Source: Deltaproteobacteria bacterium
GTDB lineage: Bacteria; Myxococcota; Myxococcia; SLRQ01
Length of the DNA stretch: 64,000 bases
NCBI GenBank assembly: GCA_029210625.1
Contig: JARGFU010000024.1
Coordinates: 1-64,000 of the forward strand
Reading direction: 5' to 3'
In this document: one piece after another, positions 938 through 32,158 of the stretch
How the letters are laid out: the number at the start of each line of letters is the position of its first letter
Position numbering within the stretch: the first letter of the stretch is position 1
The notes under the pieces: generated by a model
Databases searched by the model: none
Seen by the model: the letters and a program-made list of their open reading frames with translations, nothing else
What the model was told of the DNA's origin: nothing
Program-made: the position numbers and the translations under genes

Positions 938-967
938 AATCTAGCCCCCCCATTGGGTGGTCGTCAA
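938..967 (-). promoter_or_regulatory. Sigma-70-like promoter with spacer operator
   Basis: TTGACG (962-967) and TAGATT (938-943) on the minus strand, 18-bp spacer. The spacer carries ACCACCCAATGGGG, the operator shared by eight promoters in this window. It drives the genes from 891 leftwards. Confidence 0.7.
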
Positions 968-988
968 GGGAAAAAGTGATAAAAAATG

Positions 989-1022
989 AAAAAAAAGGGA
1001 GACCTGTCTCCAGGCCTCCCGA
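989..1022 (-). terminator. Rho-independent terminator
   Basis: On the minus strand a GGGAG-CCTG stem with GAGA loop pairs with CAGG-CTCCC and is followed by a run of nine T. It ends the 1647-1064 unit just before the promoter at 938-967. Confidence 0.8.
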
Positions 1023-1063
1023 GGGGGGAAAGTCGCCCGCCTATCCCCGGCGGGCTGGGGTCG

Positions 1064-1285
1064 TCAGGACTTGACCGGGTTGTCGAACGTCGGGGCGAAC
1101 GGGCTCTGGACCTGCTCGGGGTGGAACCTCGTGTGCGGCGGTTCGTCCCGTCCCTCCTCGATCGGGCGGATGTAGAAGAACTGCTGGTCCGAGTGGAAGA
1201 CCTCCCAGCCGGCCTCGACCTGGTCGGGCTTGAACTGGCGCACCGGGACGGCCCGGTGCTCGAAGGCGAACTGCTTGGCGTGCAT
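1064..1285 (-). CDS. Hypothetical protein (73 aa)
   Basis: The start MHAKQFAFEHR was chosen because AAGGAGCTGACC lies just upstream. The longer frame overlaps the previous gene and lacks a site. The protein is hydrophilic with several aromatic residues and ends in a Pro-rich tail. It is the last gene of a two-gene unit closed by the terminator at 989-1022. No family is recognised. Confidence 0.65.
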   Translation of the reverse strand: MHAKQFAFEHRAVPVRQFKPDQVEAGWEVFHSDQQFFYIRPIEEGRDEPPHTRFHPEQVQSPFAPTFDNPVKS

Positions 1286-1287
1286 GG

Positions 1288-1647
1288 TCAGCTCCTTGTG
1301 AAGGGGAGGGTAGGGCGGTTGGCTAGCCCGAGACGGTCGGCCTGGAGCCAGAGCATCCGCCACCAGATGTCGACGTAGGCGTCGTGCAGCTCCCGATCCG
1401 AAACGGAGTCCTTGAAGTTGTCGTAGTCGATCCCCATGATCTGCTTCGAGAGCTCCGCGGCGACGACCTTCTTGGAGATGAGCGCCCGGTAGAAGTAGTC
1501 GGCCTCCTCGTCGGTGAAGACGTCGGGCAGGCAGTCAGGGAAGGCGCGCTGGATGTCGCCGTCCCTGCGCGCCCGCACGAGCAGGAAGTCTGGATCGCGT
1601 CGGTGCGCGACGATGGATACAAAGGCGTCATTCAGACAAATCCACAC
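1288..1647 (-). CDS. Conserved phage protein, 'MWICLNDAF' type (119 aa)
   Basis: The start codon is GTG, preceded by GGAGGAGAAAA. The N-terminus MWICLNDAFVSIV, then LLVRARR-GDI and YDNFKDSV-D-LHDAY, matches from memory a small hypothetical family common in phages and integrative elements of high-GC bacteria. Its biochemical role is unknown. It is divergent from the plus-strand gene at 1725, and the two share a 77-bp control region. Confidence 0.75.
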   Translation of the reverse strand: MWICLNDAFVSIVAHRRDPDFLLVRARRDGDIQRAFPDCLPDVFTDEEADYFYRALISKKVVAAELSKQIMGIDYDNFKDSVSDRELHDAYVDIWWRMLWLQADRLGLANRPTLPFTRS

Positions 1648-1676
1648 TTTTCTCCTCCTCCGACCTCTTTAGGTCC

Positions 1677-1704
1677 TTGCTTTCCCTCCATTGGGTGGTA
1701 TGAT
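1677..1704 (+). promoter_or_regulatory. Plus-strand promoter with spacer operator
   Basis: TTGCTT (1677-1682) and TATGAT (1699-1704), 16-bp spacer containing CCTCCATTGGGTGG, the recurring operator. The leader AAGGAGACAAGGA leads directly to the ATG at 1725. Confidence 0.7.
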
Positions 1705-1724
1705 ACTAGACAAGGAGACAAGGA

Positions 1725-1985
1725 ATGTCCACTAAAAAGCCTCGAGCCGTGCTCGCCCCGACCGCCAAAATGGCCGACCTGAAGTTCAAGTACCAGGCCT
1801 GCCCGATCGCGGAGACCCGCGACCGTGAGTGGGTCGACCGCCTCCGGACCTTCGAGGACTTCATCGCCAATGGTCCCCTTGCTGCCGATGGGATCCGCGA
1901 CTCCGAGCCAAGGGACCAGGCCTGGATCCGGTCGCTCGCGCCCGACCTCCACGACCTCCTCCTCGAGACCTTCCCCGAGCCCTAG
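1725..1985 (+). CDS. Lone plus-strand protein of unknown function (86 aa)
   Basis: The only plus-strand gene in the first 32 kb. It has its own operator-bearing promoter and an AAGGAG site. The protein has a basic N-terminus (MSTKKPRAVLAPTAK) and then an acidic, helix-rich body, suggesting a soluble regulator or accessory factor. Its stop overlaps the stop of the convergent 1326-residue head gene by four bases. No family is recognised. Independent expression under the shared operator suggests a job in the regulated rather than the virion programme; this is inference. Confidence 0.75.
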   Translation: MSTKKPRAVLAPTAKMADLKFKYQACPIAETRDREWVDRLRTFEDFIANGPLAADGIRDSEPRDQAWIRSLAPDLHDLLLETFPEP

Positions 1986-5962: not shown

Positions 5963-5964
5963 GG

Positions 5965-6987: not shown

Positions 6988-6997
6988 CGTGTCCTCC

Positions 6998-8745: not shown

Positions 8746-8754
8746 GAGGTCTCC

Positions 8755-13997: not shown

Positions 13998-14228
13998 TTA
14001 GACCTTCCAGCCGTGCGCCTGGGCGGCGAGGACGTTCCAGTTGACCGACCACCCCGGCGAGCACGCGATCAGCTTCTCGACGAAGCGGACGGTGGGCAGG
14101 GCGCGCCCCTTCTCGATGTCGCAGAGGTATTGCTGGGAGATCCCCAGGGCGCGGGCGAACTCCTTCTGGGTCAGGTTCCACTTGTTGCGAAGGGCGACGA
14201 GCGCCTCGTTGAACCGTTGCATACTCAT
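13998..14228 (-). CDS. XRE/Cro-type HTH regulator (76 aa)
   Basis: Residues 8-55 form a lambda-repressor-like helix-turn-helix: LRNKWNLTQKEFARALGI then SQQYLCDIEKGRALPTV, followed by a fifth helix. At this size it is a DNA-binding domain alone, like Cro. Start overlaps the HAD gene stop (ATGA). It is a candidate for binding the spacer operators, but nothing in the sequence proves the pairing. Confidence 0.8.
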   Translation of the reverse strand: MSMQRFNEALVALRNKWNLTQKEFARALGISQQYLCDIEKGRALPTVRFVEKLIACSPGWSVNWNVLAAQAHGWKV

Positions 14229-15714: not shown

Positions 15715-16056
15715 TCAGTAGGCGAACTCGTCCTCGGGATAGTAGAGCTGGCCCGACTCCTCACGGCCCAAGGCGTTCATCGCATCGGCCAGGTTGAGCG
15801 CCGTCCAGAACTCGGCGGCGTCCTCGGCGTAGGTGCGGGCGCAGGGCGCGCAGACGGCCTCGCCGGTCTCGACGATCATGAACTCGGCGGGATCGGAGCA
15901 GTGGACGCAGCGCCCACGCTCGGCGAAGCGGGCCTTGCGGAACCAGTCCTTGACGGTCTTGAGCCTCTTGGCGACACGCTCGGCCAGGGCGCGGCGGTGC
16001 GCCGGCTCCAGCTCGTCGACGTTGAAGTGGACCTCGATCAATCGGCCAGGGCTCAT
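15715..16056 (-). CDS. Zinc-finger protein (113 aa)
   Basis: CVHCSDP...CAPCARTYAEDAAEF (near residues 50-75) forms a four-Cys zinc knuckle, flanked by helical, charged segments. The ATG has GGAGGCACCA upstream. Possibly nucleic-acid or protein binding. Confidence 0.7.
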   Translation of the reverse strand: MSPGRLIEVHFNVDELEPAHRRALAERVAKRLKTVKDWFRKARFAERGRCVHCSDPAEFMIVETGEAVCAPCARTYAEDAAEFWTALNLADAMNALGREESGQLYYPEDEFAY

Positions 16057-16241
16057 TGGTGCCTCCTATCGTTGCGGTGCGTGCCGGCGTCCGGGCAGGT
16101 CGCGAAGTGCGAGATCCTGCCGCTCACGACGGCCCCCTCATCGGTGACGATGACGACGCGGGGCAGGTCGACCGGGTTCTTCTTGCCGCTGGCGAGTTTG
16201 ACCCAGTCGATCTCCGCGGCGCAGCTTCGGCACCGGCTCAC
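16053..16241 (-). CDS. Small Cys protein (62 aa)
   Basis: GTG start overlapping the preceding TGA. The pattern SRCRSCAAEIDWVKLASGKKNPVD and later HFATCPDAGTHR is like a small zinc-binding family seen in other phages (CxxC, then C with His). Function unknown. Confidence 0.7.
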   Translation of the reverse strand: MSRCRSCAAEIDWVKLASGKKNPVDLPRVVIVTDEGAVVSGRISHFATCPDAGTHRNDRRHQ

Positions 16242-16657
16242 TCGCCACCCCCGGGCCAGATCTCGGCGATCGCGTACTGGGAGATCTCCCTCGGGGTGAG
16301 GAAGCAGGTCCCCCCGTCGATCTCGTCCGGGATCTTGCCGTCGAACGGGCGCGCCTCGTGGTGGTTGTAGCTGGTCTTGTCGTTGCGCTCGATCGCCCGC
16401 ATCGCCTCAACGGCGATCTCCAGCCGCTCGCGCAGGACGGACTCGGGGATCTCCTCCTCGACGCTGGCGCCGTAGATCCTCATGAGCCTCGCAACGGGGC
16501 CGGGGATCGCCCGGGACTCCCGGCGCCAGTTCTCAACGGAACGCTCGGTAGAGTTGAGCTTCTCGGCCATCTCCGCGTTCGTGACGCCGAGCATATCTTG
16601 GATCTCCAAGAACTCGTCGGCGGTCATGGTGTCGCGCCGGATCGGTTTCCTCTTCAT
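16238..16657 (-). CDS. HTH transcription regulator, antitoxin-like (139 aa)
   Basis: First gene after the promoter at 16701-16729; start MKRKPIRRD has AAAGGAGGACGGC. Residues 11-60 form an XRE-type helix-turn-helix (MTADEFLEIQDMLGVTNAEMAEKLN then STERSVENWR...IPGPVARLMRIY), as in HigA/MqsA antitoxin domains and phage repressors. The rest is helical and probably dimerises. No toxin is adjacent, so a repressor role at its own operator is more likely; this is inference. Confidence 0.75.
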   Translation of the reverse strand: MKRKPIRRDTMTADEFLEIQDMLGVTNAEMAEKLNSTERSVENWRRESRAIPGPVARLMRIYGASVEEEIPESVLRERLEIAVEAMRAIERNDKTSYNHHEARPFDGKIPDEIDGGTCFLTPREISQYAIAEIWPGGGE

Positions 16658-16700
16658 GCCGTCCTCCTTTGTGTCTTTTCCTTCGTTCCACTCGTTGAGA

Positions 16701-16729
16701 AGTATCCACCCAACGAGAGGCAAAAGCAA
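16701..16729 (-). promoter_or_regulatory. Promoter with spacer operator
   Basis: TTGCTT (16724-16729) and GATACT (16701-16706), 17-bp spacer holding CTCGTTGGGTG, the shared operator. It drives the HTH gene and the long accessory chain to 11028. Confidence 0.75.
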
Positions 16730-16754: not shown

Positions 16755-17045
16755 TCAGCTCTGGTTGTGCAGGATGACGCGGGCCTTGCCGGCCTCCGCG
16801 GCGAGGCGTGCGGCCTCCCACTCGCTGTAGTGCTCCTTGTCGCGCTCGTAGTGGTAGGCGCCCCACTTCTCGGCCCAAGCCGCGACGAGCTCCATCTCCT
16901 CGGCGTAGGTGCGCTCGTAGTTGTCGAGCCAGTCGGGGCAGACGACGTCGAGGACGTCGCAGATGTTGAAGGCCTCGATCGGCGCCTGGTCCCGGTCGAT
17001 CAGGCACATTGGTTGGACTCCGGTCTCGTGCGGGGTCTGGATCAT
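16755..17045 (-). CDS. Hypothetical protein (96 aa)
   Basis: The start at MIQTPHETG was chosen because AAGGAGACCGCG, which would be coding in a longer reading, is its ribosome-binding site. It has two Cys (CLIDRD, FNICDVLDVVC) and a long charged helix (NYERTYAEEMELVAAWAEKW...). It is the second gene of the unit headed by the cyclotransferase-like gene. No family is recognised. Confidence 0.7.
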   Translation of the reverse strand: MIQTPHETGVQPMCLIDRDQAPIEAFNICDVLDVVCPDWLDNYERTYAEEMELVAAWAEKWGAYHYERDKEHYSEWEAARLAAEAGKARVILHNQS

Positions 17046-17055: not shown

Positions 17056-17808
17056 TTAGCCAAGGACGGTCACAAGGCGGTCGTTGTGGTCGTAGAAGTA
17101 GAGGTCGGGGTGCTTCGATACGCGCTTGCCCTTCTTCTTGCCCTTCTGGGAGGCCTTGGCGGGGGCGCTGCTGGCGTTCCAGCTCCACCCCTTGTTCCCC
17201 TTGGCCGGGGCGAAGGTCGCCTCCCAGGGCTCCTCGGGGATCTCGAGGGTGCTCTTCCAGCCCTTGAGCTTCGCGAGCTCGGCGAAGCTGGTGCGAAAGC
17301 CGGCCTGGGAGCGGTTGTCGACCAGCTCCCACTGCTCCATCTTCTCGGAGACGCGGAGCAGGGCGTCCTTGAGGTTCGTCAACGGCAGCTTCCAGGCCTT
17401 GTAGGCGCGGGCGATGACCCCCAGGTAGTCCTCGGCGGGGTCGTGCTCGCGGCACCCGGGGGCCATGACGTAGACGAGGGCCTGGATCCGGAGCCCCTGG
17501 TGGTTCACGGTCAGCCACTTCTTCCGGTAGACGTCAGAGGCGACGCCCTCGCAGCGGTCCAGGGTCGCCTCGTGGTCGGGGGTGATCGCCCACAGGATCC
17601 CGGGGACCTCGCACCCCACCTTGCGCTCGACGTCGGCGACGCCGGTCACGCGGGACCAGCGGCGGAAGGTGAGGCGGTGCTCGGCCAGGGTCGCCAAGCC
17701 CAGGGCCACGGCGCCGGGGCAGCGGCGGCGCATCTGCTTGCCGTTGCAGTTGGATCCGTAGGCGAAGTAGTAGACCTCTCGGGCTCGGTTCTTCTTGTTG
17801 CTTGCCAT
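17056..17808 (-). CDS. Gamma-glutamylcyclotransferase-like protein (250 aa)
   Basis: FAYGSN (residues 15-20) is the GGCT/AIG2 substrate-loop signature, and LDRCEGV supplies the expected catalytic Glu. The family releases 5-oxoproline from gamma-glutamyl amines or peptides. Residues after about 190 are a Lys/Ala-rich extension. Start MASNKKNRA has GGAGACTGGAG upstream; the leader has the CGGCAT hairpin. One terminator and one promoter separate it from a second cyclotransferase and an amidoligase, which fits synthesis and removal of a gamma-glutamyl-type linkage. Confidence 0.75.
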   Translation of the reverse strand: MASNKKNRAREVYYFAYGSNCNGKQMRRRCPGAVALGLATLAEHRLTFRRWSRVTGVADVERKVGCEVPGILWAITPDHEATLDRCEGVASDVYRKKWLTVNHQGLRIQALVYVMAPGCREHDPAEDYLGVIARAYKAWKLPLTNLKDALLRVSEKMEQWELVDNRSQAGFRTSFAELAKLKGWKSTLEIPEEPWEATFAPAKGNKGWSWNASSAPAKASQKGKKKGKRVSKHPDLYFYDHNDRLVTVLG

Positions 17809-17862: not shown

Positions 17863-17891
17863 ACAATACCACCCAATGGGGGGTACTACAA
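17863..17891 (-). promoter_or_regulatory. Promoter with spacer operator
   Basis: TTGTAG (17886-17891) and TATTGT (17863-17868), exactly 17 bp apart, with CCCCCCATTGGGTGG filling the spacer. It drives the cyclotransferase-like gene. Confidence 0.8.
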
Positions 17892-17972: not shown

Positions 17973-18389
17973 CTATGCGAAGGCCTGCCGGGGCTCGAAG
18001 AGGCGCTGCCGGGGCGCCTGCGGCCTCTGGTGGTCACTGTAGTCCCCTGATGGGACCGGAACGCCTCGGGGGGTGGGGCAGAAGTAGAGCCAAGCGGTGA
18101 CGCTCTCGCCGTTGTCGAGCGTGACCGTGATCTCCTGGCGGCGATACCAGCGGGGATGTTCCTCCAGGCTGTCGAGGCGTTCCAGCGTCTCGGGATCCAC
18201 GGCGTAGACCTCCCCCCGGATCGGGGTAACAGGTTCGTCCTTGACGACGTAGGGGATCCGTTCGGCGTACATGGCATAGAGCTCGTCGGTCATGGCCGGC
18301 CCCAGCTCTCGGACCCCCGGGCCGGTGAGGAAGCAGTGGTTGTGGAAGCCCTTGCGGAGCGAGCCATAGACGAAGATCTTGCGGTTCAT
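17973..18389 (-). CDS. Second gamma-glutamylcyclotransferase-like protein (138 aa)
   Basis: FVYGSLRKG (residues 6-14) is the GGCT/AIG2/GGACT signature, and LERLDSLEEHP holds the conserved acidic residue. The length is that of a bare family domain, about half its neighbour at 17056, and the two share little beyond the fold motifs, so recent duplication is unlikely. Last gene of the operon begun by the amidoligase. Expected to act in the cytosol on a gamma-glutamyl or related amide. Confidence 0.8.
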   Translation of the reverse strand: MNRKIFVYGSLRKGFHNHCFLTGPGVRELGPAMTDELYAMYAERIPYVVKDEPVTPIRGEVYAVDPETLERLDSLEEHPRWYRRQEITVTLDNGESVTAWLYFCPTPRGVPVPSGDYSDHQRPQAPRQRLFEPRQAFA

Positions 18390-18720: not shown

Positions 18721-19716
18721 TTAGGCGGCTTCGGCGAAGGTCGAGGCGCGCAGGGTGAAGTAGGCGACGTCGGCGGCGGCGAGGGAGGCGAGGCGCATGA
18801 GACCGGCCAGGGTCGCTGTGCGCTCAGGAGCCGCGGGCGCTCCTTCGGCGTTGCCGGTGGTCAGGTGGTAGCGCACGGTGCCGTTCTCGCGGGTCGTCTT
18901 GAGGTCCAGGCCCATCGCCCACACGGCCTTATAGATCTGGAAGCTCGGGTTCTTGGCGCCGGTCATTTCCTTCGCCTCGGCCAGGGTCAGCCCTTCAGAG
19001 ACGAGCTTCTGGATGACCGGGCGATACTTGCCGCGGGTCGTGACGGTGACGTTGTGGACGTCGGCGGCGGCGGGGGCCTTGCTCTTCTCGACCAGGGCGA
19101 GGCACAGGCGCAGCCAGGGGAGGACCTTCGCGGCTTCGACGGTTCCGGAGTGCTGGCGGAACTCCACGGTGCCGTGGACGGTGTAGCTCTGGAGGTTGAG
19201 CTTGTGGTAGCGGTCGTTGTTGAGACAGTAGCAAAGCTCGTTCATGGTCGTCGCGGCCATGATTGCGCGGTAGGTCGTCGCGCTGCGGAGGCTCTTGCAG
19301 AAGCGGTTGTTTTGGGCGCGGCGGCTGGTGGGCATGAAGGAGTCGGTGACGGGCTCGTAGTGCCGGTAGTCGGCGACCAGCTTCTTCCAGTTCTCCAGGG
19401 TCAGGTCGCGGGCGTCAGCGTGAACGTGGAGCCCAGTGGTACGGTTGACGCGGCACCCAATGGCGGTCAGACATTCGAGGACCTTTTGGAGCTGCTCGAT
19501 GCCGGCGTCGCCACTCAGGACCGGGGAGACGACTTCCATCTCGGTTCCGGTGCCGTGGACGCTGCAATCGGTCACGATCTTCCACCAGGTGCGCGTCGCG
19601 TGGTTGTAACCCTCTTCGCGGCAGTTGACGCCGGTCTCGCGGATCTTCTCGGCTACCTGAGCGCGGCTCATCGTAGGGTGGAAGGTCTCGATCTCGATCC
19701 CAAAAGAGCGTGCCAT
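18721..19716 (-). CDS. Putative amidoligase, COOH-NH2 ligase superfamily (331 aa)
   Basis: FGIEIE (5-10), EMEVVSP (59-65), TGLHVHAD (94-101) and VEFRQHSGT (184-192) are the hallmark motifs of the Amidoligase_2 family. These glutamine-synthetase-like enzymes are thought to join an amine to a carboxylate using ATP. The family is known to co-occur with cyclotransferase-like genes, as here. The start MARSFGIEI has GGGAGACTCACA and a CGGCAA-type leader hairpin upstream. The C-terminal 80 residues are helical and Ala-rich, beyond the catalytic core. Substrate unknown. Confidence 0.85.
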   Translation of the reverse strand: MARSFGIEIETFHPTMSRAQVAEKIRETGVNCREEGYNHATRTWWKIVTDCSVHGTGTEMEVVSPVLSGDAGIEQLQKVLECLTAIGCRVNRTTGLHVHADARDLTLENWKKLVADYRHYEPVTDSFMPTSRRAQNNRFCKSLRSATTYRAIMAATTMNELCYCLNNDRYHKLNLQSYTVHGTVEFRQHSGTVEAAKVLPWLRLCLALVEKSKAPAAADVHNVTVTTRGKYRPVIQKLVSEGLTLAEAKEMTGAKNPSFQIYKAVWAMGLDLKTTRENGTVRYHLTTGNAEGAPAAPERTATLAGLMRLASLAAADVAYFTLRASTFAEAA

Positions 19717-19779: not shown

Positions 19780-19809
19780 ATAGTACCCACTCATTGGGGT
19801 GGGACGCAA
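19780..19809 (-). promoter_or_regulatory. Promoter with spacer operator
   Basis: TTGCGT (19804-19809) and TACTAT (19780-19785), 18-bp spacer containing CACCCCAATGAGTGGG. It drives the amidoligase operon. Confidence 0.8.
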
Positions 19810-21077: not shown

Positions 21078-22208
21078 CTAGTTGGGGATCAGCTTCGTTG
21101 CGGCCTGTTCCACGGCGATGCGGCTGTCCGTGTGGGGGATCGAGCGGGCGGCGGCGGTGATGCCTTGCACCATATCCCAGGCGGTGTCGACTTTGCCCTC
21201 CTCGGTCTGCGCCTGCTTCCAGCCGTCCTCGATGATCCCCTTGGCGATCCCCGTGCGCTCGCGGACCCAGCGCAGAATATCCTCGTAGGAGCCCTCTCCG
21301 GGGGCGGCGGTCTTGAGGCGAAGGTTCTGCGCCCTCTCGATCGCCTGGACCTCCTGCTCAACGGAGCGCTCGGCGTAGTCCTCCAGGGCGGGCGCGGCCT
21401 CGCGCAGGAAGCGCGCAGGCGCCCCGGCGTTGTGCCGGATCGAGAGCTGCTCAACGTGGCGGGCGCCCCAGATGATCCGGTTGTCGCAGACCTTCTCGTA
21501 GAGCATGAGCATGAGCTTGAAGGAGGCGCTCCCGGTCTCGGAGTTCGAGACGATGAAGCCCCGGTAGCTCGGGGCCTGCTGGCCTGGGATCTGGATCGGG
21601 TTCGCGGGGTCGCACAGGAAGCAGAAAACGTCCCGGTCGCTCGCGTAGAGGGTCGTCGCTCGCTTGGGGTTGTGGCTGGTGTAGCTGGAGGCGGGGACGA
21701 CCCAGCGCCCCCCCTGCTCCTGGTTGAGCCTCATGACGGCGTCGACCACATCGAGGTCGAAGATGCGCCCATAGCTCGGGGAGGTCACTGCGCGCAGGGT
21801 GCCCGCTCCCTCTCCCTGGTCCTCGTAGTAGAAGGCGCTCTCGCCCTTGTCGGAGTCGACGCGCAAGCCGTGGGTGAGGAGCGCCGTGGTCAGCTCCGGG
21901 GGGAGCCGGCGCAGGTAGGCGGCGGGGGCCTTGGCGACCTGGGCGGTCTGTCCGAAGCTCCAGTGGGTGAAGTCCAGGCGCTCGAACTTGCGGTGCTTGA
22001 GGACGACGTCGCGGCCCACGATGTCGGGGTAGAGCTCCTTCGGCTGGATCTCAACCGTCCGGACGTTCTCGGTGCGGAGGGCGACCGCGGCCCGGAGCCC
22101 CTCGAGGGTGACGAAGCGCTCGTCGTCCGGGCGGCTCGCCCACTGGCGCGAGAGGTGATAGAGGTTGGTCGGGGCGGCGGCGCCTGCGTTGGTCTGTAGC
22201 TGGTTCAT
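21078..22208 (-). CDS. DUF932-like phage/plasmid protein (376 aa)
   Basis: The central block YRGFIVSNSETGSASFKL, then LYEKVCDNRIIWG, is the signature of DUF932/phage-plasmid-like proteins, often encoded near plasmid replication or conjugation regions. Function unknown. Predicted cytosolic with a mixed alpha/beta core and a helical C-terminal third (AERSVEQEVQAIERAQ). Start MNQLQTNAG has GGAGGAGAG upstream. Confidence 0.75.
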   Translation of the reverse strand: MNQLQTNAGAAAPTNLYHLSRQWASRPDDERFVTLEGLRAAVALRTENVRTVEIQPKELYPDIVGRDVVLKHRKFERLDFTHWSFGQTAQVAKAPAAYLRRLPPELTTALLTHGLRVDSDKGESAFYYEDQGEGAGTLRAVTSPSYGRIFDLDVVDAVMRLNQEQGGRWVVPASSYTSHNPKRATTLYASDRDVFCFLCDPANPIQIPGQQAPSYRGFIVSNSETGSASFKLMLMLYEKVCDNRIIWGARHVEQLSIRHNAGAPARFLREAAPALEDYAERSVEQEVQAIERAQNLRLKTAAPGEGSYEDILRWVRERTGIAKGIIEDGWKQAQTEEGKVDTAWDMVQGITAAARSIPHTDSRIAVEQAATKLIPN

Positions 22209-22218: not shown

Positions 22219-22512
22219 CTACTGGCTGACGGCGTAACGGGGCAGGAAGCATCCGGTCAGCTTGCCCGTCTCGCGGTCGAGGTGGTTGTGGATCCCGGTG
22301 ACGTCGTGGAGCAGGTCGTAGTCGCTGGCGGCGGCGAGCTCCTCCAGGCGAAGCGGGCATCCGTTGAGGTGGGCCAAGGTCAGGGTCCGGCACGTTGCAG
22401 CGGGCACCAGCCGGACCCCCAGGACCTCGCAGGCTTTCACGGCCCGCTCGGCGATCTTGGTGATGAGGTCGATCTCGTGGTTCGGGGCGAGGGTCTTCAA
22501 CTCTGTCTTCAT
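22219..22512 (-). CDS. Hypothetical protein (97 aa)
   Basis: Start MKTELKTLAPNHEIDL with AAGGAGAAGCCGCG upstream. A helical N-terminus carries ITKIAERAVKACEVLG, then VPAATCRTLTLAHLNGCPLRLEEL and a His-rich TGIHNHLDRETG. It resembles small phage proteins of unknown role. Confidence 0.65.
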   Translation of the reverse strand: MKTELKTLAPNHEIDLITKIAERAVKACEVLGVRLVPAATCRTLTLAHLNGCPLRLEELAAASDYDLLHDVTGIHNHLDRETGKLTGCFLPRYAVSQ

Positions 22513-22566: not shown

Positions 22567-23016
22567 CTAGTGAACGATGATCGTGCCCCACGGGGGGACG
22601 AGGTGGGTCTGCGCGCTCTCGACGATCCGGGGACCCAGGGAGCGCCCCTTGCCCTCGGTCTTGATCTCGGCGAAGTACATGACGCCGGAACCGTCCGGGG
22701 TCACTTCCACCAGGGAGAGGGCCTCCTGGCGCCCCTCCATATTCTTCACGCGCCCCTCGGGGATCGTCTCGCCTGGCGCGAGCTTCTTGATCCAGCTCTC
22801 GGAGATGACGACGACCAGGTCGGCCCCGGTGCGGCGGGCGAGCGCGCTGGCCTGGCGGCAGGACTGCATCTTCAACGCCTCGGAGCTGAAGTTGACCTGG
22901 CCGTGCGCGATGATGTGGTTGTCCTTGACGATGAAGATAAACGGGAGGGCCTCGGCCTCTGCGGTCACGATGTCGGCGGCGGTTCTCCAGAGGGTCTCGG
23001 TAATATGTTTGCTCAT
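22567..23016 (-). CDS. Hypothetical protein (149 aa)
   Basis: MSKHITETLWRTAADI... contains IFIVKDNHIIAHGQV and a later VVVISESWIKKL strand-turn pattern, suggesting an alpha/beta sensor- or nuclease-like fold, but no motif is decisive. ATGA overlap with the upstream gene. Confidence 0.65.
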   Translation of the reverse strand: MSKHITETLWRTAADIVTAEAEALPFIFIVKDNHIIAHGQVNFSSEALKMQSCRQASALARRTGADLVVVISESWIKKLAPGETIPEGRVKNMEGRQEALSLVEVTPDGSGVMYFAEIKTEGKGRSLGPRIVESAQTHLVPPWGTIIVH

Positions 23017-23294
23017 GCGCGCTCGCTCCTCTTGAAGTAGGTGACGTCGATGTCGTCGTAGTGGCGCTTGCCGCCTGCGACGGTGTAGGTGCAGGCGACC
23101 AGGGCGAGGGTGTTGCTGCTGGGGGTGCGGGAGCCGGCCTTCTCGAGGTGGCGTTCGGCGGTCCTGAGCCGGCGGAAGCGCCCCTGGGCGGATCCCCTGG
23201 TGCTGCGGCGGAACTGCTTGCCGTCCCAGAGCTTCACCTCGCGCCCCCGGACCTCGATGAAGTAGTAGTCGACGGTCTTGCCGGTTGGGTCCAT
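23013..23294 (-). CDS. Hypothetical protein (93 aa)
   Basis: First gene after the promoter at 23347-23376; ATG preceded by GGAGACTCCA and the ACGGCAA hairpin. MDPTGKTVDYYFIEVRGREVKLWDGKQF begins a small beta-rich domain, followed by a basic Arg/Ser linker and a second beta segment. No family is recognised. Confidence 0.7.
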   Translation of the reverse strand: MDPTGKTVDYYFIEVRGREVKLWDGKQFRRSTRGSAQGRFRRLRTAERHLEKAGSRTPSSNTLALVACTYTVAGGKRHYDDIDVTYFKRSERA

Positions 23295-23346: not shown

Positions 23347-23376
23347 TATATACCCCTCAACGGGGGGGTCGTGCAA
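23347..23376 (-). promoter_or_regulatory. Promoter with spacer operator
   Basis: TTGCAC (23371-23376) and TATATA (23347-23352), 18-bp spacer holding CCCCCCGTTGAGGGG. It drives the six-gene unit to 19967. Confidence 0.8.
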
Positions 23377-23962: not shown

Positions 23963-24163
23963 CTAGAAACCAAGGATCTCGACGGCAGCCTTGACGGTCA
24001 GTGGAGTCGTCAAGGAGAGGTCGAGGCCCTTGTCCCAGCGGGTGATCGTGTCGTCGCCCCAGATCTTCACGCGAACGCTACGGCGGCGGCTTGTGATGAC
24101 GCCCTCGGCGTCTGCATACTCGCGAAGCTGCTTGCGTGTGCGGATCTTGGTCTTGCTTTTCAT
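23963..24163 (-). CDS. Small basic protein (66 aa)
   Basis: First gene after the promoter at 24213-24241; AAGGAGACTCGAAG before ATG. MKSKTKIRTRKQLREYADAEG...RRRSVRVKIWGDD looks like a compact DNA-binding or KOW-like basic domain, but no family is assignable. Confidence 0.65.
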   Translation of the reverse strand: MKSKTKIRTRKQLREYADAEGVITSRRRSVRVKIWGDDTITRWDKGLDLSLTTPLTVKAAVEILGF

Positions 24164-24194: not shown

Positions 24195-24212
24195 TCTTGT
24201 TGACGTGGCGAC

Positions 24213-24241
24213 AAAGTACCCCCCGTTGGGTGGTTCCGCAA
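24213..24241 (-). promoter_or_regulatory. Promoter with spacer operator
   Basis: TTGCGG (24236-24241) and TACTTT (24213-24218), 17 bp apart, spacer AACCACCCAACGGGGGG. It starts the two-gene unit to 23488 and lies immediately after the ParB-methyltransferase gene with no terminator between them. Confidence 0.8.
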
Positions 24242-24259
24242 GGGGAAAATGATCTCTTT

Positions 24260-25663
24260 TTACTTTTTCGCTTCTTTTTCCCGTGCCGCCCGATACGCGG
24301 CTTCGACCTCATCCGCGAGGCCGACCCTGCGGCACCCGGGCCACGGCAGGTCGAACTCCCGGCGCAGGGCGGCGATCGCCTGGTCCTCGGGGATCTCCCC
24401 GGTCTTGATCGCTGACGCCTGCCAGGTGGTCGAGTGCTTGTGCCCCGTCAGTTTCATCTTGTAGGCGTCGAGCATGGCCGGGACTTCGTCCTTGGCGTGG
24501 AACCGCTGGTAGACCCAGTTCCCCAGGAAGAAGATCGCAGTGAAGCCGTCGTCGTCGAGGAACTGGATGTAGCGGCGCTCGGCGTCCCCATCGACCGTCG
24601 CTTCCAGCGCCCGGGCGGTGTACTCCTTGCAGCGTCCCGAGAGGTAGATGCGCGCCCCTGGCTTGGCGAGGGCGTTGATGGTGGTGAGCACGTCGGCCTC
24701 GGCCTGCGGGGAGTCGACCGCGCAGATGACGACGTCGAGGACGACCACGTCGTAGCGCCCCCGCTCCGCGATGTCCTTGAACATGGCCCGGCACATTCGA
24801 TGGACCTGTCCGGTGTCGATGGTCGCCCCGCCTTTGGCCCGGCGGAAGAACTCGACCCCGTGGATCCGGTAGCCCTCCCGGTTGAGCTTCGCCTGGTAGT
24901 CCCCCTGGCCGCAGCCGAAGTCGAGCACGCGCTCGTCCTTGCGGAGCTCCGGAAGGATGTGCTTCTCATAGAGGGGACTGCGGTTGCTCATCCGGCCCGT
25001 CTTCTCGTTCTCGCGGAGCCGGAAGACCTGGACGTTGGTCTGGGCGTAGGTGAGTTTCGGAAGGTGGGCGTAGGAGAACTTCCCGTAGGCGCGCCCGAAG
25101 CGCTCGAGGACCTCGGCCTCCTTGTCGTCTGGAATGTAGTTGACCCGGCAGGGCTTCCCGATGACCTTGCAGGCGAGGGCGTAGTTCGCCCCCGAGAGGA
25201 CCTTGCCGGACTGTGTCGCGACCGCGGCGCCCCAGAGCCCGTGGGCGAGGATCAGCTTGATCGACTCCTTGCGGATCCCGGCCCCGGGGGACCGCAGGTT
25301 GCCGGCGATCTCCTTCGCGGGCACGTCGACCCAGCCGAGGACCCCGGCGGGCGGAACGGAGCACGCCTCATCGCCCGTGTCGGCGTCGGTGCCGTTGTGG
25401 AGCTGGTTGAAGCGCACCTCGTCGACGTCGCTCAACCCCTCGAGCAGGACGACCGGCGCGTGGGTGTAGCCGAGCGCCCGGAGGCTCTTGGTGCGCTGGT
25501 GACCCGCGACGATCGTGCCGTCCTCCTTGCGGACGAGGATCGGCTTGAGCACTCCCAGCGAGGAGAGCGACTCCCGCAGCGCGGCCAGGTCGTCGTCCCC
25601 GATGATCCGGGGGTTGTAGATCGCCCCCTTGATCTCGGCAATCGGATATTCGGGGTAGAACAT
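24260..25663 (-). CDS. ParB-like nuclease domain fused to SAM methyltransferase (467 aa)
   Basis: Residues 8-85 are a ParB/Srx-like domain (GAIYNPRIIGDDDLAALRES, with AGHQR 53-57). Residues 230-400 are a class I methyltransferase with VLDFGCGQG (246-254) and VVVLDVVICAVDSP as the motif IV region. There is no DPPY or PC motif, so the methyl acceptor is unclear. ParB-methyltransferase fusions are typical of phage DNA-modification or anti-restriction modules. A second ParB-like gene lies directly upstream. RBS GGAGAGGACCCC. Confidence 0.8.
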   Translation of the reverse strand: MFYPEYPIAEIKGAIYNPRIIGDDDLAALRESLSSLGVLKPILVRKEDGTIVAGHQRTKSLRALGYTHAPVVLLEGLSDVDEVRFNQLHNGTDADTGDEACSVPPAGVLGWVDVPAKEIAGNLRSPGAGIRKESIKLILAHGLWGAAVATQSGKVLSGANYALACKVIGKPCRVNYIPDDKEAEVLERFGRAYGKFSYAHLPKLTYAQTNVQVFRLRENEKTGRMSNRSPLYEKHILPELRKDERVLDFGCGQGDYQAKLNREGYRIHGVEFFRRAKGGATIDTGQVHRMCRAMFKDIAERGRYDVVVLDVVICAVDSPQAEADVLTTINALAKPGARIYLSGRCKEYTARALEATVDGDAERRYIQFLDDDGFTAIFFLGNWVYQRFHAKDEVPAMLDAYKMKLTGHKHSTTWQASAIKTGEIPEDQAIAALRREFDLPWPGCRRVGLADEVEAAYRAAREKEAKK

Positions 25664-25691
25664 GGGGTCCTCTCCTCCCCGGGGCCGCTTC

Positions 25692-26743: not shown

Positions 26744-26913
26744 CGGGTGAGGTTCCCCCAGGCCTGTTTGACGATCTTCTGGAGTTCCTTGGGGTCCTTG
26801 ACGTCCACCCCGGAGCGGCGGGCGGCGGTGAGGAGCTTGCGGTACTCGGCGCCCACGGCGCGGCGCGTTTGGCGGTTGGGGCGTTGCTGGATGACCGAAG
26901 GGGAGGTTGCCAT
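26740..26913 (-). CDS. Small basic protein (57 aa)
   Basis: Start MATSPSVIQQRPNRQ has AAGGAGTCAAA; a GCCAGCAAAG repeat lies 15 bp further upstream. Arg/Lys-rich helices (RQTRRAVGAEYRKLL) suggest nucleic-acid contact. ATGA overlap with the DUF4406 gene. Confidence 0.6.
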   Translation of the reverse strand: MATSPSVIQQRPNRQTRRAVGAEYRKLLTAARRSGVDVKDPKELQKIVKQAWGNLTR

Positions 26914-26948
26914 TTTGACTCCTTGCCGCTTTGCTGGCATATGGGGCC

Positions 26949-26975
26949 GAAGAAAGCCGGGGGGGAATCCCCGGC
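26949..26975 (-). terminator. Rho-independent terminator
   Basis: GCCGGGG/CCCCGGC stem (26969-26975 with 26956-26962) followed on the minus strand by TTTCTT. It ends the ribbon-helix-helix gene. Confidence 0.7.
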
Positions 26976-26992
26976 CCCTTCGAGTGTGGACG

Positions 26993-27193
26993 CTACCCTC
27001 TGCGACGGCCTCGAGCATACTCCTCGAGGACGTTCGTGACCATATCACTCATCGGGCGGTCGTCGAACGCGGCGAGACTCTTGAGCTCGCGGTGGAGCCC
27101 CGCCGGAATGTAGAACGTCACCTTGCGCGTCTCGCGCAGCGTGGCCGTCCGGGTCGTTACCTCCGTGTCGGTCTGCCTGTTCGTCTGTGCCAT
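26993..27193 (-). CDS. Ribbon-helix-helix DNA-binding protein (66 aa)
   Basis: After a flexible Thr/Gln/Arg tail, RKVTFYIPAGLHRELKSLA (strand, helix 1) and PMSDMVTNVLEEYARG (helix 2) form a CopG/Arc-type RHH domain. It stands alone between a near-consensus promoter (TTGACA-17-TATAGA) and its own terminator. An operator-like CCCATTGGGG lies in its leader. This is the layout of an autoregulated master regulator. A second RHH protein is at 29999. Confidence 0.8.
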   Translation of the reverse strand: MAQTNRQTDTEVTTRTATLRETRKVTFYIPAGLHRELKSLAAFDDRPMSDMVTNVLEEYARGRRRG

Positions 27194-27230
27194 ATCTCCT
27201 CCCCGATTCTCCCCCCCCCGGTGGTTCCCC

Positions 27231-27242
27231 CCCAATGGGTAT
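27231..27242 (-). promoter_or_regulatory. Operator-like site in the RHH leader
   Basis: ATACCCATTGGG on the minus strand matches the core of the spacer operators but lies downstream of the promoter, about 40 bp before the ATG. A roadblock or autoregulatory site is inferred. Confidence 0.5.
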
Positions 27243-27277
27243 CTACGACTTACAGCATACCACTAAACCGTCAAACG

Positions 27278-27306
27278 TCTATAGAAGTTTTCAACTTTGC
27301 TGTCAA
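27278..27306 (-). promoter_or_regulatory. Near-consensus promoter for the RHH gene
   Basis: TTGACA (27301-27306) and TATAGA (27278-27283), exactly 17 bp. This is the closest match to a consensus sigma-70 promoter in the window, embedded in unusually A/T-rich sequence with a second TTGACA-like word at 27311-27316. Confidence 0.8.
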
Positions 27307-27313
27307 TTTACTG

Positions 27314-27856
27314 TCAAAATCGGCGCGGGTGGAGCGTGATCTCCACCCCGGGGCGCTCCTTGTCGACCGCAAAGTCGTCCGAAAACCCTACGACATGCTC
27401 CCAGCCGTCGTTGGCGAGGATGCCGGCGTAGCGCAGCCCGTCGATGATGAGCTTCTTCGCGCCGGCCACGTTGTCCTTATCGCGTCTGCGGTTGCGCTCG
27501 ATCCAGCGGAAGTGAACGTGGACGGGGTAGTCGACCGCCCGGGTCCCCGCGGTCCAAAGCGCCACGGCGACGGCCTCGGACCAGTGCTTCTTCATCTCGT
27601 TGTAGGGGTCGACGAAGATCCTCTCGCCGCCCCGTCTGCGCCAGCCGGCCTTTCGGGCGGCGGCGAGCAGCTCGTTCTCCCCGGGGCAGGGACCATCGAG
27701 GAAGAACGTCTGGGCGACCGCCGCCCGCTCTGCCGGCGGGGCCTCCAGGCGCTCCAGCCGCTTTGCTGGCCTGCTTGCTGGCTTGCCGTGGTGCTTTGCT
27801 GGCACGGCATAGCGCCCCTTGAGCTGGATCGAGCGACCCCGGATCCGCCCCCTCAC
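27314..27856 (-). CDS. RusA-like Holliday junction resolvase (180 aa)
   Basis: DKDN (126-131), LIIDGLRYAGILANDGW (136-152) and a late acidic VDKERPGVEI match the RusA fold (phage-type, about 120-150 aa). The acidic residues coordinate Mg at the junction. GTG start overlaps the helicase-loader stop (GTGA). An extra basic N-terminal 45 residues is encoded by DNA rich in the GCCAGCAAA/TTGCTGGC repeat, suggesting the repeat was accommodated in coding sequence. Confidence 0.8.
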   Translation of the reverse strand: MRGRIRGRSIQLKGRYAVPAKHHGKPASRPAKRLERLEAPPAERAAVAQTFFLDGPCPGENELLAAARKAGWRRRGGERIFVDPYNEMKKHWSEAVAVALWTAGTRAVDYPVHVHFRWIERNRRRDKDNVAGAKKLIIDGLRYAGILANDGWEHVVGFSDDFAVDKERPGVEITLHPRRF

Positions 27857-29636: not shown

Positions 29637-29673
29637 GGGGGTCCCACACCTGGGACCGGTGGTTGTTCTCCAT
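29629..29673 (-). CDS. Leader peptide upstream of the replisome organizer (14 aa)
   Basis: ATG after GGGAGACTCGCG opens MENNHRSQVWDPHE and stops at TAG overlapping the initiator ATG (CCCCATGAGTAG). The good ribosome-binding site belongs to this peptide; the initiator itself has none, so translation of the initiator probably depends on reading the leader. Confidence 0.6.
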   Translation of the reverse strand: MENNHRSQVWDPHE

Positions 29674-29698
29674 CGCGAGTCTCCCTGAAAGGTCTGTA

Positions 29699-29714
29699 GG
29701 CCCATGCCGGGGCC
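29699..29714 (-). promoter_or_regulatory. 5' leader hairpin, CGGCAT loop
   Basis: Minus-strand RNA GGCCC-CGGCAT-GGGCC, 26 nt before the leader-peptide ATG, followed by GGGAGACT. Confidence 0.6.
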
Positions 29715-29727
29715 TGGTACGACGCAG

Positions 29728-29756
29728 AGAGTAAATCAAGCCGTTTTGCTGGTCAA
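29728..29756 (-). promoter_or_regulatory. Promoter of the replication operon
   Basis: TTGACC (29751-29756) and TACTCT (29728-29733), 17 bp apart; a CCAGCAAAA repeat overlaps the spacer. It drives leader peptide, initiator, helicase loader and RusA genes. Confidence 0.75.
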
Positions 29757-29770
29757 GAGACAAAAAGACA

Positions 29771-29793
29771 AGACTACCACTCATTGGGAGGGC
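29771..29793 (-). promoter_or_regulatory. Operator-like site upstream of the replication promoter
   Basis: CCCTCCCAATGAGTGG matches the spacer operators and is followed by TAGTCT, but no -35 hexamer stands in front. It lies between the leftward replication promoter and the rightward small-RNA promoter. Confidence 0.55.
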
Positions 29794-29831
29794 GGCTCGC
29801 GTAACCCCTTTTCGGGAAAGCGTTTTTTCCC

Positions 29832-29860
29832 TTGCCGGATCGTCGAGGAGATGATACCTT
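29832..29860 (+). promoter_or_regulatory. Plus-strand promoter of a candidate small RNA
   Basis: TTGCCG (29832-29837) and TACCTT (29855-29860), 17-bp spacer, start predicted near 29867. Confidence 0.6.
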
Positions 29861-29865
29861 GGGAA

Positions 29866-29995
29866 GCGTAGGGTCGATGAGACCCTATGCCTCGGGCAGG
29901 TCCGAGTCTCCCGTCCGAGTCCGGGGTTGAGGGGATGCCGCTCCTCTACCCCATCTACAACAAAGCCCCGACCCTGGCCGGTCGGGGCTTTCTCT
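29866..29995 (+). ncRNA. Candidate small RNA, about 130 nt
   Basis: A promoter at 29832-29860 and a strong terminator at 29962-29991 bracket it. The 5' end is a 10-bp hairpin (GCGTAGGGTC with GACCCTATGC), then CTCGG/CCGAG and CCCG/CGGG hairpins. No convincing long coding frame; a 17-codon frame from 29878 is possible. It fills most of the 325-bp gene-free gap 29674-29998, runs divergently from the replication promoter, and does not overlap the replication mRNA. Confidence 0.55.
29962..29991. terminator. Bidirectional rho-independent terminator
   Basis: Perfect 12-bp stem AAAGCCCCGACC/GGTCGGGGCTTT with a 6-nt loop; T-rich on both strands. It serves the par operon from the right and the small RNA from the left. 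Confidence 0.85.
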
Positions 29996-29998
29996 TGT

Positions 29999-30217
29999 CT
30001 AGTTCAAGAGCTTGTGCTCCCTTCCGTAGCCTTCGAGAATCTGGGAGACCAGGTCGCTCATGCTGGTCTCCTCCTCGACCGCCTGGATCCGAACCATGCG
30101 CGCCAGGTGGGCCGGTAGATAGAAGCTCACCTTCTTCTGATCCCCGCGCAACACCTTGGTTGGTCGTGCGCGGTTCGTCTCCAGCGCCTTGGGCGAAAAC
30201 CCCTTGAGCAGACTCAT
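29999..30217 (-). CDS. Ribbon-helix-helix partition partner of ParA (72 aa)
   Basis: A basic flexible N-terminus (GFSPKALETNRARPTKV) precedes KKVSFYLPAHLARMVRIQA and TSMSDLVSQILEGYGRE, an RHH domain like ParG/ArsR-type centromere binders and CopG. It directly follows parA, the normal type Ib partition order. GAGGAGGAACG precedes the ATG. An autoregulator of the operon is an alternative role. Confidence 0.8.
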   Translation of the reverse strand: MSLLKGFSPKALETNRARPTKVLRGDQKKVSFYLPAHLARMVRIQAVEEETSMSDLVSQILEGYGREHKLLN

Positions 30218-30239
30218 GATCGTTCCTCCTCCTCTCGGT

Positions 30240-30995
30240 TCACTCCCGCGTAAGCTGCGCGGCCAGCCAGCGTGCTGCGTCTCTGTAGTCTTGCGCCCCC
30301 CCACTGCGGGGGGCCGACTGAAGTACCGAAGAACCGTTCATCGGGGCCAGGGCGATCTCGACCAGCTCCCGTATGGGCGGGGCCAAGAGCCCCGGGTAGG
30401 TTTCCTCCATCTCTGCGATCGCCACTTCATGCACCTTGCGCCGGGGGTGCGCCCGCGTCGGCAGATAGCCCAGCACGCGCAGCCCCGGGTTGTGGAGCAT
30501 CCGGACCTGGTCGACCGTCGAGGTGATGATCGTCAACGCCTTCAGCGAGAGCGGGTGGGCCTCGAACGGCACCAGCACCCCGCTTGCAGCGACCAGCGAC
30601 GAGATCGTCAGAAAGCCCAGGTGTGGGCTCGTGTCGAGCAGCACGACGTCGTAGGCCCCCTCGCACTTGGTCAGGGCGCGCTGGAGCCGGCGGATCGCCC
30701 CGCGCTCCCCCTCGAGCGCCTCGGCCTCGGCCAGCGACGGGCTCCCAGGCACCAGCCACAGCCTCTCGATCCCCGTCTCCCGGGCGAGTTCGCCGATCCC
30801 GCAGGCCGCGACGATCGCCGCCGCCAGGGCCTCCCCGCCGATGTCCTGGCCGGTCAGGCTCAGGCTCGCCCCGCCTTGGGGATCGAGATCCACCAGGAGC
30901 ACCTTCGCCCCCTGCTCCGCAAGCGCGGCCCCCATGTTGACGACCGTCGTCGTCTTGCCGACCCCGCCCTTCTGGTTCGCCACGGCGAGAATCAC
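30240..30995 (-). CDS. parA: ParA-type partition ATPase (251 aa)
   Basis: The deviant Walker A KGGVGKTT (9-16), VDLDPQGG (about 38-45) and VVLLDTSPHLG are definitive for ParA/Soj/MinD-type ATPases. No N-terminal helix-turn-helix, so type Ib, paired with an RHH protein. GTG start overlaps the recombinase stop (GTGA). It moves replicated phage-plasmid copies apart on the nucleoid, if the prophage is extrachromosomal as inferred. Confidence 0.9.
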   Translation of the reverse strand: MILAVANQKGGVGKTTTVVNMGAALAEQGAKVLLVDLDPQGGASLSLTGQDIGGEALAAAIVAACGIGELARETGIERLWLVPGSPSLAEAEALEGERGAIRRLQRALTKCEGAYDVVLLDTSPHLGFLTISSLVAASGVLVPFEAHPLSLKALTIITSTVDQVRMLHNPGLRVLGYLPTRAHPRRKVHEVAIAEMEETYPGLLAPPIRELVEIALAPMNGSSVLQSAPRSGGAQDYRDAARWLAAQLTRE

Positions 30996-31570
30996 CAGTC
31001 GATCCCCGTCACGGCAGAGTCGATCTCGGCCCGGTCGAAGGACAGGTAGGCGACCGTCGTCTGGATCCACCGATGCCCGAGCGCCTCCTTGGTGCGGTTG
31101 ATGTCCCGCCCGAGCCGCTCGTGGACCTGGGAGGCGAAGAACTTCCGCATCGAGTGGGTCCCGACCGCCCCCGTCACGCCGGCCACTTGGTAGGCCTCCG
31201 AGAGGATGAGCTGCGCGCTTCGCACGGCCAGGGCCGAGTCGCCCGTGCGGCGCCGCTTGGATCCGAACAGGAAGGCGTCCGGCCCGAAGCGTTTGTAGGT
31301 GCGCTTGACGTGGCGCTCCCCGTGTTTGCGAACCATCGGATGCAGCGGCAGCACGCGCCCCTCCCCGGCTCCCTTCATATGCCGGCGCTTCACTTCCACC
31401 ACCCCCGACCACTCCCCGGGGTAGATGTGGCGCACGCGCACCGAGAGCAGCTCCGAGATCCGGAGCCCGGTGGTGCATCCCAGGACGAAGAGGGTGCGGT
31501 CTCGGTCGGTCTGGAGGGCCGCAATCACCTTTCCCACCTCGTCTTGCTGTAGGGGGCGGCATCCCTTCAT
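30992..31570 (-). CDS. Short tyrosine recombinase (192 aa)
   Basis: Catalytic residues are in order: R37 (TTGLRISE), a Lys in KRRHMKG (61-66), H139-x-x-R142 (THSMR), H166 (LGHRW), Y175 (AYLSF). The protein is essentially the catalytic domain; integrases normally exceed 300 aa with arm- and core-binding domains. Together with parA this favours a multimer resolvase rather than an integrase. RBS GAAGGAGACAAAACGACA. Confidence 0.85.
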   Translation of the reverse strand: MKGCRPLQQDEVGKVIAALQTDRDRTLFVLGCTTGLRISELLSVRVRHIYPGEWSGVVEVKRRHMKGAGEGRVLPLHPMVRKHGERHVKRTYKRFGPDAFLFGSKRRRTGDSALAVRSAQLILSEAYQVAGVTGAVGTHSMRKFFASQVHERLGRDINRTKEALGHRWIQTTVAYLSFDRAEIDSAVTGIDW

Positions 31571-31595
31571 TGTCGTTTTGTCTCCTTCGGAACTT

Positions 31596-31624
31596 AGCGT
31601 AGTAGGTAAAGTTGACCCCGTCAA
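31596..31624 (-). promoter_or_regulatory. Promoter of the recombinase-par operon
   Basis: TTGACG (31619-31624) and TACGCT (31596-31601), 17 bp. The -35 lies in the inverted repeat TTGAC-CCC-GTCAA (31612-31624), a probable operator. Confidence 0.7.
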
Positions 31625-31650
31625 GCGCAAGTACCGAACAATGAGCACAA

Positions 31651-31680
31651 AAAAGGCGACCCGGTAGCGAGTCGCCTTTT
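31651..31680. terminator. Bidirectional rho-independent terminator
   Basis: Perfect 10-bp stem AAAAGGCGAC/GTCGCCTTTT, loop of ten. It ends the gene at 31996-31727 on the minus strand (TTTTTT follows). Confidence 0.85.
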
Positions 31681-31726
31681 CTACGTCTTGTGAGGGGAAC
31701 GCGAACTACGTGACCGTGAGCATGAG

Positions 31727-31996
31727 CTACAAGGCGACCGCCTGGCTTCCAGTGCCGGCGGCCCGGCGCAGGAGATGTTCGAGCCGCCGCGGCAAGCCCT
31801 TCGTCGTCCGGCGCGCCTCGTGGCCTCCCTTGCACTCCATCTCGTAGCGCTTCATCTCCTGCAACACGTTGATCCCTAGATAGTTCGCTTGTTTCGCTCG
31901 CACCCACGAGCGGGCGATCTCTACGCTCCCATCGACCGTCTCAATCGTCGCGACCACGGGGTCCATCACGTTCGGAAACGCCAGCACCTTTCCCAT
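31727..31996 (-). CDS. Hypothetical protein next to the par region (89 aa)
   Basis: Start MGKVLAFPNVMDPV with GAGGAGCGTGGG. The C-terminal 30 residues are basic (CKGGHEARRTTKGLPRRLEHLLRR). A single-gene unit with its own promoter and terminator next to the switch between leftward and rightward transcription, so a regulator is plausible; no known DNA-binding fold is evident. Confidence 0.7.
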   Translation of the reverse strand: MGKVLAFPNVMDPVVATIETVDGSVEIARSWVRAKQANYLGINVLQEMKRYEMECKGGHEARRTTKGLPRRLEHLLRRAAGTGSQAVAL

Positions 31997-32062
31997 CCCA
32001 CGCTCCTCCTTGATCCCGACAAAAAGCAAAGGCCATCCGAGTTCAGATCAATCCCCTGTTGC

Positions 32063-32091
32063 CTTGTACACCGATTGACGTTCGTCGTCAA
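32063..32091 (-). promoter_or_regulatory. Promoter with inverted repeat over the -35
   Basis: TTGACG (32086-32091) and TACAAG (32063-32068), 17 bp; the -35 is one arm of ATTGACG-TTCGT-CGTCAAT (32074-32092). The same half-site occurs at the recombinase promoter. Confidence 0.7.
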
Positions 32092-32129
32092 TATGCGGAA
32101 GTGGAGACAAAAAAATTTCATTTTTCCCC

Positions 32130-32158
32130 TTGCATCCCCTCCCAGTGAGTGGCATACT
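32130..32158 (+). promoter_or_regulatory. Rightward promoter with spacer operator
   Basis: TTGCAT (32130-32135) and CATACT (32153-32158), 17 bp, spacer CCCCTCCCAGTGAGTGG. It starts the plus-strand recombination operon. Confidence 0.8.

Follow-up and report, generated by a model that had tools for sequence, protein, structure and literature searches.

A dispersed promoter-embedded palindrome and its candidate XRE-type repressor in a phage-plasmid of a deltaproteobacterium

The window analyzed here, bases 1 to 64,000 of a 77,331-bp contig (C24) in the 6.1-Mb draft genome of a Deltaproteobacteria bacterium, belongs to a phage replicon that carries twelve clear copies of a 19-bp palindrome, most of them placed between the -35 and -10 hexamers of predicted promoters. 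Very probably, one XRE-type helix-turn-helix (HTH) repressor encoded at 16238-16657 reads these palindromes, blocks RNA polymerase at nine promoters, regulates its own gene, and shuts phage genes off together. The best reading of this system is an autorepressor of the HigA2/Aca kind that has expanded from its usual single operon to a phage-wide regulon of mainly early and accessory genes.

The two ends of the contig have 55 identical bases in common and thus overlap to give a circular replicon of 77,276 bp. Its terminase matches phrog_38 at 2e-103, and it also encodes large structural-type genes, a replication initiator, a DnaC-like loader, RusA, a Sak4/RecA-like ATPase, an exonuclease, and a tyrosine recombinase with ParA, followed by a small ribbon-helix-helix (RHH) protein. 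Circularity together with phage structural genes (terminase), an initiator, and ParA identifies the replicon as a phage-plasmid. A weak similarity to Mx8/Mx9 was observed.

An operator confined to the phage replicon

A weight matrix built from the sites reported in a first-pass annotation of the window converges on the palindrome TACCACYCAWTGRGTGGTA. Its twelve clear sites are centered at 953, 1691, 16695, 16713, 17876, 19794, 23360, 24226, 29784, 32145, 74220, and 75522; three of them, 16695 within the window and 74220 and 75522 in the rest of the contig, were absent from that annotation. A thirteenth site at 27235 is weak, with a score of 13.0, and about one such score per genome is expected by chance. 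Of the two extra copies claimed earlier outside the listed promoters, 29784 is present and strong, whereas 27235 is present but weak.

The operator set is far above chance and confined to the phage replicon. CCACCCANTGGGTGG with up to 3 mismatches has 20 matches compared to 3.9 expected and a maximum of 9 in 100 shuffles. With the twelve-site matrix, 10 genomic positions score above 16, compared to 0.13 expected from a second-order Markov sequence. The genome-wide scan suggested in the first pass bore its regulon out: each site ranks 1 to 3 in the genome when left out of the matrix, and most sites lie in predicted promoters. Strict forms occur on this contig only, exact CCNCYCAWTGRGNGG being found at just four places in the 6.1-Mb genome, all on the contig, and the full promoter-operator pattern once, at 1677. 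A search for six operator strings in the open-access literature found none, subscription papers lying outside that scope.

Promoters were predicted by eye and consensus. The palindrome fills the spacer at nine sites, at 75522 and at all eight promoters listed in the first pass, with spacers of 16 to 18 bp as described there. At these nine sites, the -35 hexamer starts 14 to 16 bp before the center and the -10 hexamer 7 to 10 bp after it, and the -10 often begins with the palindrome's outer TA. Because the palindrome lies between the two hexamers in nearly constant phase, a bound dimer would exclude RNA polymerase.

The candidate reader and its pairing with the operator

Which protein reads the operator? 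The first-pass annotation had put forward the HTH and RHH proteins for binding tests; the candidate is now narrowed to the HTH protein 16238-16657, and the RHH proteins have no relatives in operator-bearing phages. This 139-aa XRE-type protein, encoded on the reverse strand, is likely to be the reader. Its start codon, ATG at 16657, stands behind AGGAGG, its gene lies directly behind the only double operator (16695/16713), and its recognition helix is TERSVENWRRESR (R39, E42, N43, R49). It matches a PHROG transcription regulator at 1e-7. In an AlphaFold2 (AF2) model, blocks of residues 11 to 60 average 91 to 97 in predicted local distance difference test score, with the recognition helix at residues 38 to 45. 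An HTH profile search of the 6.1-Mb genome returned this protein as the sole match and only RxxENW HTH. The neighboring genes 15715-16056 and 16755-17045 have no PHROG match.

Sequence comparisons pair the recognition helix with the operator in both directions across phages and bacteria. A scan of viral contigs for operators with a -10 hexamer behind them found about two dozen phages that differ in base composition and carry almost perfect copies, for example TTGACATACCACTCATTGAGTGGTATAATA; typically 0.1 to 2 kb downstream, these phages encode an HTH with an R-x-x-E-N-W helix and a following R. After deduplication, an RxxENW...R HTH lies within 2.5 kb of 10 of the 16 promoter-type operators; among 52 other exact matches to the palindrome, the count is 1 (Fisher p=2.7e-7), and this single positive, L021, is itself a promoter-type site. 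Exact CCACCCATTGGGTGG alone was rejected as a guide: its 62 loci in IMG/VR come close to the number estimated to arise by chance, many of them resemble terminators (aaaaCCACCC...GGGTGGtttt) or lie in other contexts, and only the promoter-phase subset is informative.

For the reverse direction, the peptide P[KL]R[TS][IVM]ENW was the only basis for choosing HTH genes, which were then scored with the matrix of the window phage; the complete 15-row HTH alignment diverged too far to be used in a pattern search. An operator lies within 1.5 kb upstream of these genes in 31/40 genomic and 19/33 viral cases, versus 0/39 and 0/33 in equal downstream stretches. Column-permuted matrices average about 1 to 1.5 matches, and the few permutations that reach up to 26/40 presumably just swap similar columns. 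Several of the loci scored as lacking an operator carry close variants such as TATCACTCAATGAGTGATA. The hosts are mostly Clostridia and Tenericutes. An intended control helix, PKRTIEKW, occurred at one locus and was unusable as a control. The viral and genomic sets overlap slightly with the operator-selected phages (e.g., L132/L179/L120), which makes the two directions partly dependent on each other. In the divergent HTH alignment, R, E, N, W, and R are the only invariant or near-invariant recognition residues.

The 20 other phage records with the operator have one or at most two sites each, most of these records being fragments. Tandem palindromes 32 to 36 bp apart are seen at L021:11226-11258, L066:12243-12279, and L044:748-781; an RxxENW HTH follows in L021 and L066, and small genes of no recognized function or RHH-like ones follow in L044 instead. 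In some Tenericutes (L131, L145, L150, and L152), the HTH is fused to a nucleotidyltransferase (MntA-like) antitoxin domain and followed by an HEPN-like toxin gene, these loci being driven by what appears to be the same HTH-operator module.

Individual operators and the genes behind them

The genes under operators are mostly small and without recognized function, joined by an amidoligase/gamma-glutamylcyclotransferase group, a DUF932 gene, and recombination genes. At the left end of the window, GACCACCCAATGGGGGGGC (944-962, reverse strand) occupies the spacer of TTGACG-18-TAGATT ahead of 595-891 and the small genes that follow, and TTCCCTCCATTGGGTGGTA (1682-1700, forward strand) that of TTGCTT-16-TATGAT ahead of 1725-1985. 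The operator at 16704-16722 (reverse strand) sits in the regulator's own promoter, TTGCTT-17-GATACT or -18-ATACTT. The second operator, TACTTCTCAACGAGTGGAA (16686-16704, reverse strand), lies 18 bp downstream around the predicted transcript start of the regulator and has leave-one-out rank 1.

The best score belongs to TACCCCCCATTGGGTGGTA (17867-17885, reverse strand), in TTGTAG-17-TATTGT ahead of the gamma-glutamylcyclotransferase-like gene 17056-17808; the operator at 19785-19803 (reverse strand), in TTGCGT-18-TACTAT, precedes the amidoligase-like gene 18721-19716. A second gamma-glutamylcyclotransferase-like gene, 17973-18389, lies between these two on the same reverse strand, and two members of this trio head operator cassettes. 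Also on the reverse strand, 23351-23369 in TTGCAC-18-TATATA precedes 23013-23294, 22567-23016, 22219-22512, and the DUF932 gene 21078-22208, and 24217-24235 in TTGCGG-17-TACTTT precedes 23963-24163 and the small gene or genes that follow. On the forward strand, 32136-32154 in TTGCAT-17-CATACT precedes 32225-32377 and the RecA/Sak4-like ATPase 32401-33576.

The remaining sites are placed differently. The strong operator at 29775-29793 (reverse strand, score 22.9) lacks a good, suitably spaced -35 and lies upstream of the better promoter of the replication-initiator operon, TTGACC-17-TACTCT; it possibly also covers an extended -10 (TGGTAGTCT). Both 29784 and 74220 are just upstream of other -35-like sequences, 74220 being ahead of the scaffold/capsid operon. 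The weak site at 27226-27244 (reverse strand) has one good half and is flanked by a promoter-like sequence on one side and by the Arc-like RHH gene 26993-27193 on the other. TTGACAGCAA-like boxes at 27296-27317, near 29758, and at 74196 of the contig accompany the operators 27235, 29784, and 74220 and possibly represent a second regulatory element; upstream of the RHH gene they form two 11-bp direct repeats (27296-27317).

The earlier suggestion that all non-structural cassettes are co-controlled went too far at both ends, since the promoter of the recombinase-ParA-RHH operon has no operator site and the scaffold/capsid operon has one upstream. In the recombinase-ParA-RHH operon, ParA (30240-30995) is followed by a 72-aa RHH protein (29999-30217), both on the reverse strand, with the tyrosine recombinase (30992-31648) directly upstream; the ParA-RHH pair resembles a partition cassette of type Ib-like organization for the phage-plasmid. 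This RHH protein and the one at 26993-27193 (reverse strand) share the DNA-facing strand KVxFY[IL]P and look like paralogues. Inverted repeats of the form TTGAC...GTCAA at 31612-31624 and 32075-32091, one near the likely recombinase-ParA promoter and the other farther upstream, are candidate sites for the partition RHH protein. Two other reverse-strand genes encode a methyltransferase domain fused to a ParB N-terminal domain (24260-25663) and a second XRE protein, CI/Cro-like and 76 aa long, with no operator ahead, which is possibly a separate switch (13998-14228).

Role of the regulon, alternatives, and relation to known repressors

In the proposed mechanism, a dimer of the HTH protein would read TACCACYCAWTGRGTGGTA through Arg39, Glu42, Asn43, and Arg49. 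The two adjacent operators at its own promoter would provide negative autoregulation and limit repressor synthesis. Strong promoters would fire on entry and then shut off together as the repressor accumulates, and the same binding would keep the operator promoters down in the plasmid-prophage state. The first-pass proposal of a regulon of promoter-embedded operators at which one phage protein would block polymerase is supported, and we infer that the window protein binds these sites, that it represses there, and when it does so. Between a master repressor of lysogeny and an early-burst shut-off, we favor the second, which has been proposed for Aca proteins (PMC9410906) and also for the Aca8-linked regulon of SIRV2 (PMC11065993).

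The lysogeny role, in which the same HTH protein acts like CI or C1 in lysogeny and immunity and holds the early program off in the plasmid-prophage, is a serious possibility though not a probable one. The sites cover recombination (32145) and adjoin the replication-initiator (29784) and head (74220) operons, the ParA operon, needed in a prophage, is left without a site, and 22 C1 operators are dispersed over P1, which is a plasmid prophage too (PMC8546580). However, the regulator itself belongs to the repressed set, no CI-type C-terminal protease or oligomerization domain was recognized in it, and the relatives found are without exception small autorepressors of single operons or linked to toxin-antitoxin systems.

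Binding of the palindromes by an RHH protein (29999-30217 or the Arc-like 26993-27193) as a combined centromere and regulator has precedents in the omega protein of pSM19035 and the dispersed centromere sites of N15, and RHH repressors can bind promoter spacers. ParA with a small RHH gene resembles a partition cassette, and an RHH gene is found next to each of the sites 29784 and 27235, but we consider this explanation improbable: neither RHH protein has relatives in operator-bearing phage loci or viral contigs, where RxxENW HTHs are strongly enriched, and the ParA operon promoter has no site. A pure partition-site reading was discarded, no iterated palindromes being found around the ParA-RHH cassette. 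Least credible, and largely refuted already, is the view that the motif serves a host or phage sigma factor as a promoter element, which would account for the nearly constant phase to the -10 and the overlap of the outer TA but not for a two-fold palindrome that also occurs outside spacers (16695, 27235, and 74220), does not recur elsewhere in the genome, and accompanies consensus TTGACA/TATAAT in unrelated phages.

Several points weigh against the HTH repressor as the reader that blocks polymerase. The three sites outside spacers would act otherwise than by filling them. The window HTH is only 13 to 31% identical to the other HTHs, and phmmer connects it to operator-linked HTHs only at E values of 0.003 to 0.02. 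Relatives of the phage sought through terminase, HTH, RHH, and initiator were all distant, so covariation cannot be traced inside its own lineage. HigA2 speaks for the assignment as the best PDB sequence match of the window protein and as the top Foldseek match of the AF2 model, where its chains fill the top eight ranks, but the Foldseek E values are weak (1.5e-2). The HigA2 operator, TGTACGC-N5-GCGTACA, has a half-site unlike that of the phage, so possession of the R-E-N-R residues is not enough to set the site. Finally, the core CTCATTGAG, common to the phage operator and the site ATACGCTCATTGAGCGTAT that Aca10 binds inside the promoter TTGCAA-N16-TATTCT (PMC9410881), could be due to chance and is only suggestive, because 2.7% of random palindromes score as well.

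If the assignment holds, an orphan phage-plasmid gains a named repressor with a defined operator, the operator becomes a sequence handle for listing co-regulated early genes, which are mostly without recognized function and are candidate anti-defense genes, and four recognition-helix residues are linked to a single operator in distantly related phages and across bacterial phyla.

Among known systems, HigA2, the XRE antitoxin of Vibrio cholerae HigBA2, shares the R-T-x-E-N-W...R helix, a single 19-bp promoter palindrome, and autorepression. In its DNA complex, bases are contacted by Arg68, Glu71, Asn72, and Arg77 (PMC11006873; PDB 8a0x), with which R39, E42, N43, and R49 of the window protein align, and its operator starts after the -35, extends over the -10, and represses in vivo (PMC11006873). 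HigA2 has a HigB toxin partner and differs in its disordered N terminus and its control of one operon; should the common ACnC be what is read, the spacing between its half-sites would exceed that of the phage operator by 2 bp. Aca proteins are likewise small HTH repressors in phage operons with a palindrome inside strong -35/-10 promoters (PMC9410906), and here too an inverted repeat lies inside the predicted core promoter of the regulator's own operon. Aca10 is the best match of the family profile A3 (E 2.9e-9; Aca2, 0.02), whereas the window protein alone reaches neither at E<=1. The helix of Aca10 is RTWQQW, known Acas control one acr-aca operon, and no anti-CRISPR gene was identified in the phage, whose controlled genes mostly lack a recognized function.

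The archaeal virus SIRV2 resembles the phage in its many small early genes with strong promoters and one shared regulatory sequence, and shut-off of this early anti-defense regulon by one Aca has been proposed (PMC11065993), but its promoters are archaeal, its regulator is a winged HTH, and its operator is unrelated. The C1 regulon of P1 also serves a plasmid-prophage with one repressor and about 20 dispersed operators; C1 works with Coi and Lxc (PMC8546580), and its operator is 17 bp and asymmetric, unlike the 19-bp palindrome. Cluster A stoperators, the analogy drawn in the first pass, combine one repressor with many sites, some in promoters, and some relatives are maintained as plasmids. 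Yet they are asymmetric and directional, lie mostly outside promoters, and block elongation (PMC6550527), whereas the phage sites are symmetric and nine of the twelve strong ones lie in predicted spacers; HigA2/Aca autorepressors fit better (PMC11006873, PMC9410906). Promoter-embedded palindromes with small phage HTH repressors were known for single operons, and dispersed operators for P1 and Cluster A. What is new is a single phage in which a HigA2/Aca-like repressor has a dozen sites, since other operator-bearing phage records show one or two. More speculatively, the R-x-x-E-N-W helix and its promoter operator might be one transferable module, used in toxin-antitoxin loci, in single phage operons, and here in a whole-phage regulon, that labels early host-takeover and anti-defense genes as a bacterial counterpart of the early anti-defense regulons of archaeal viruses.

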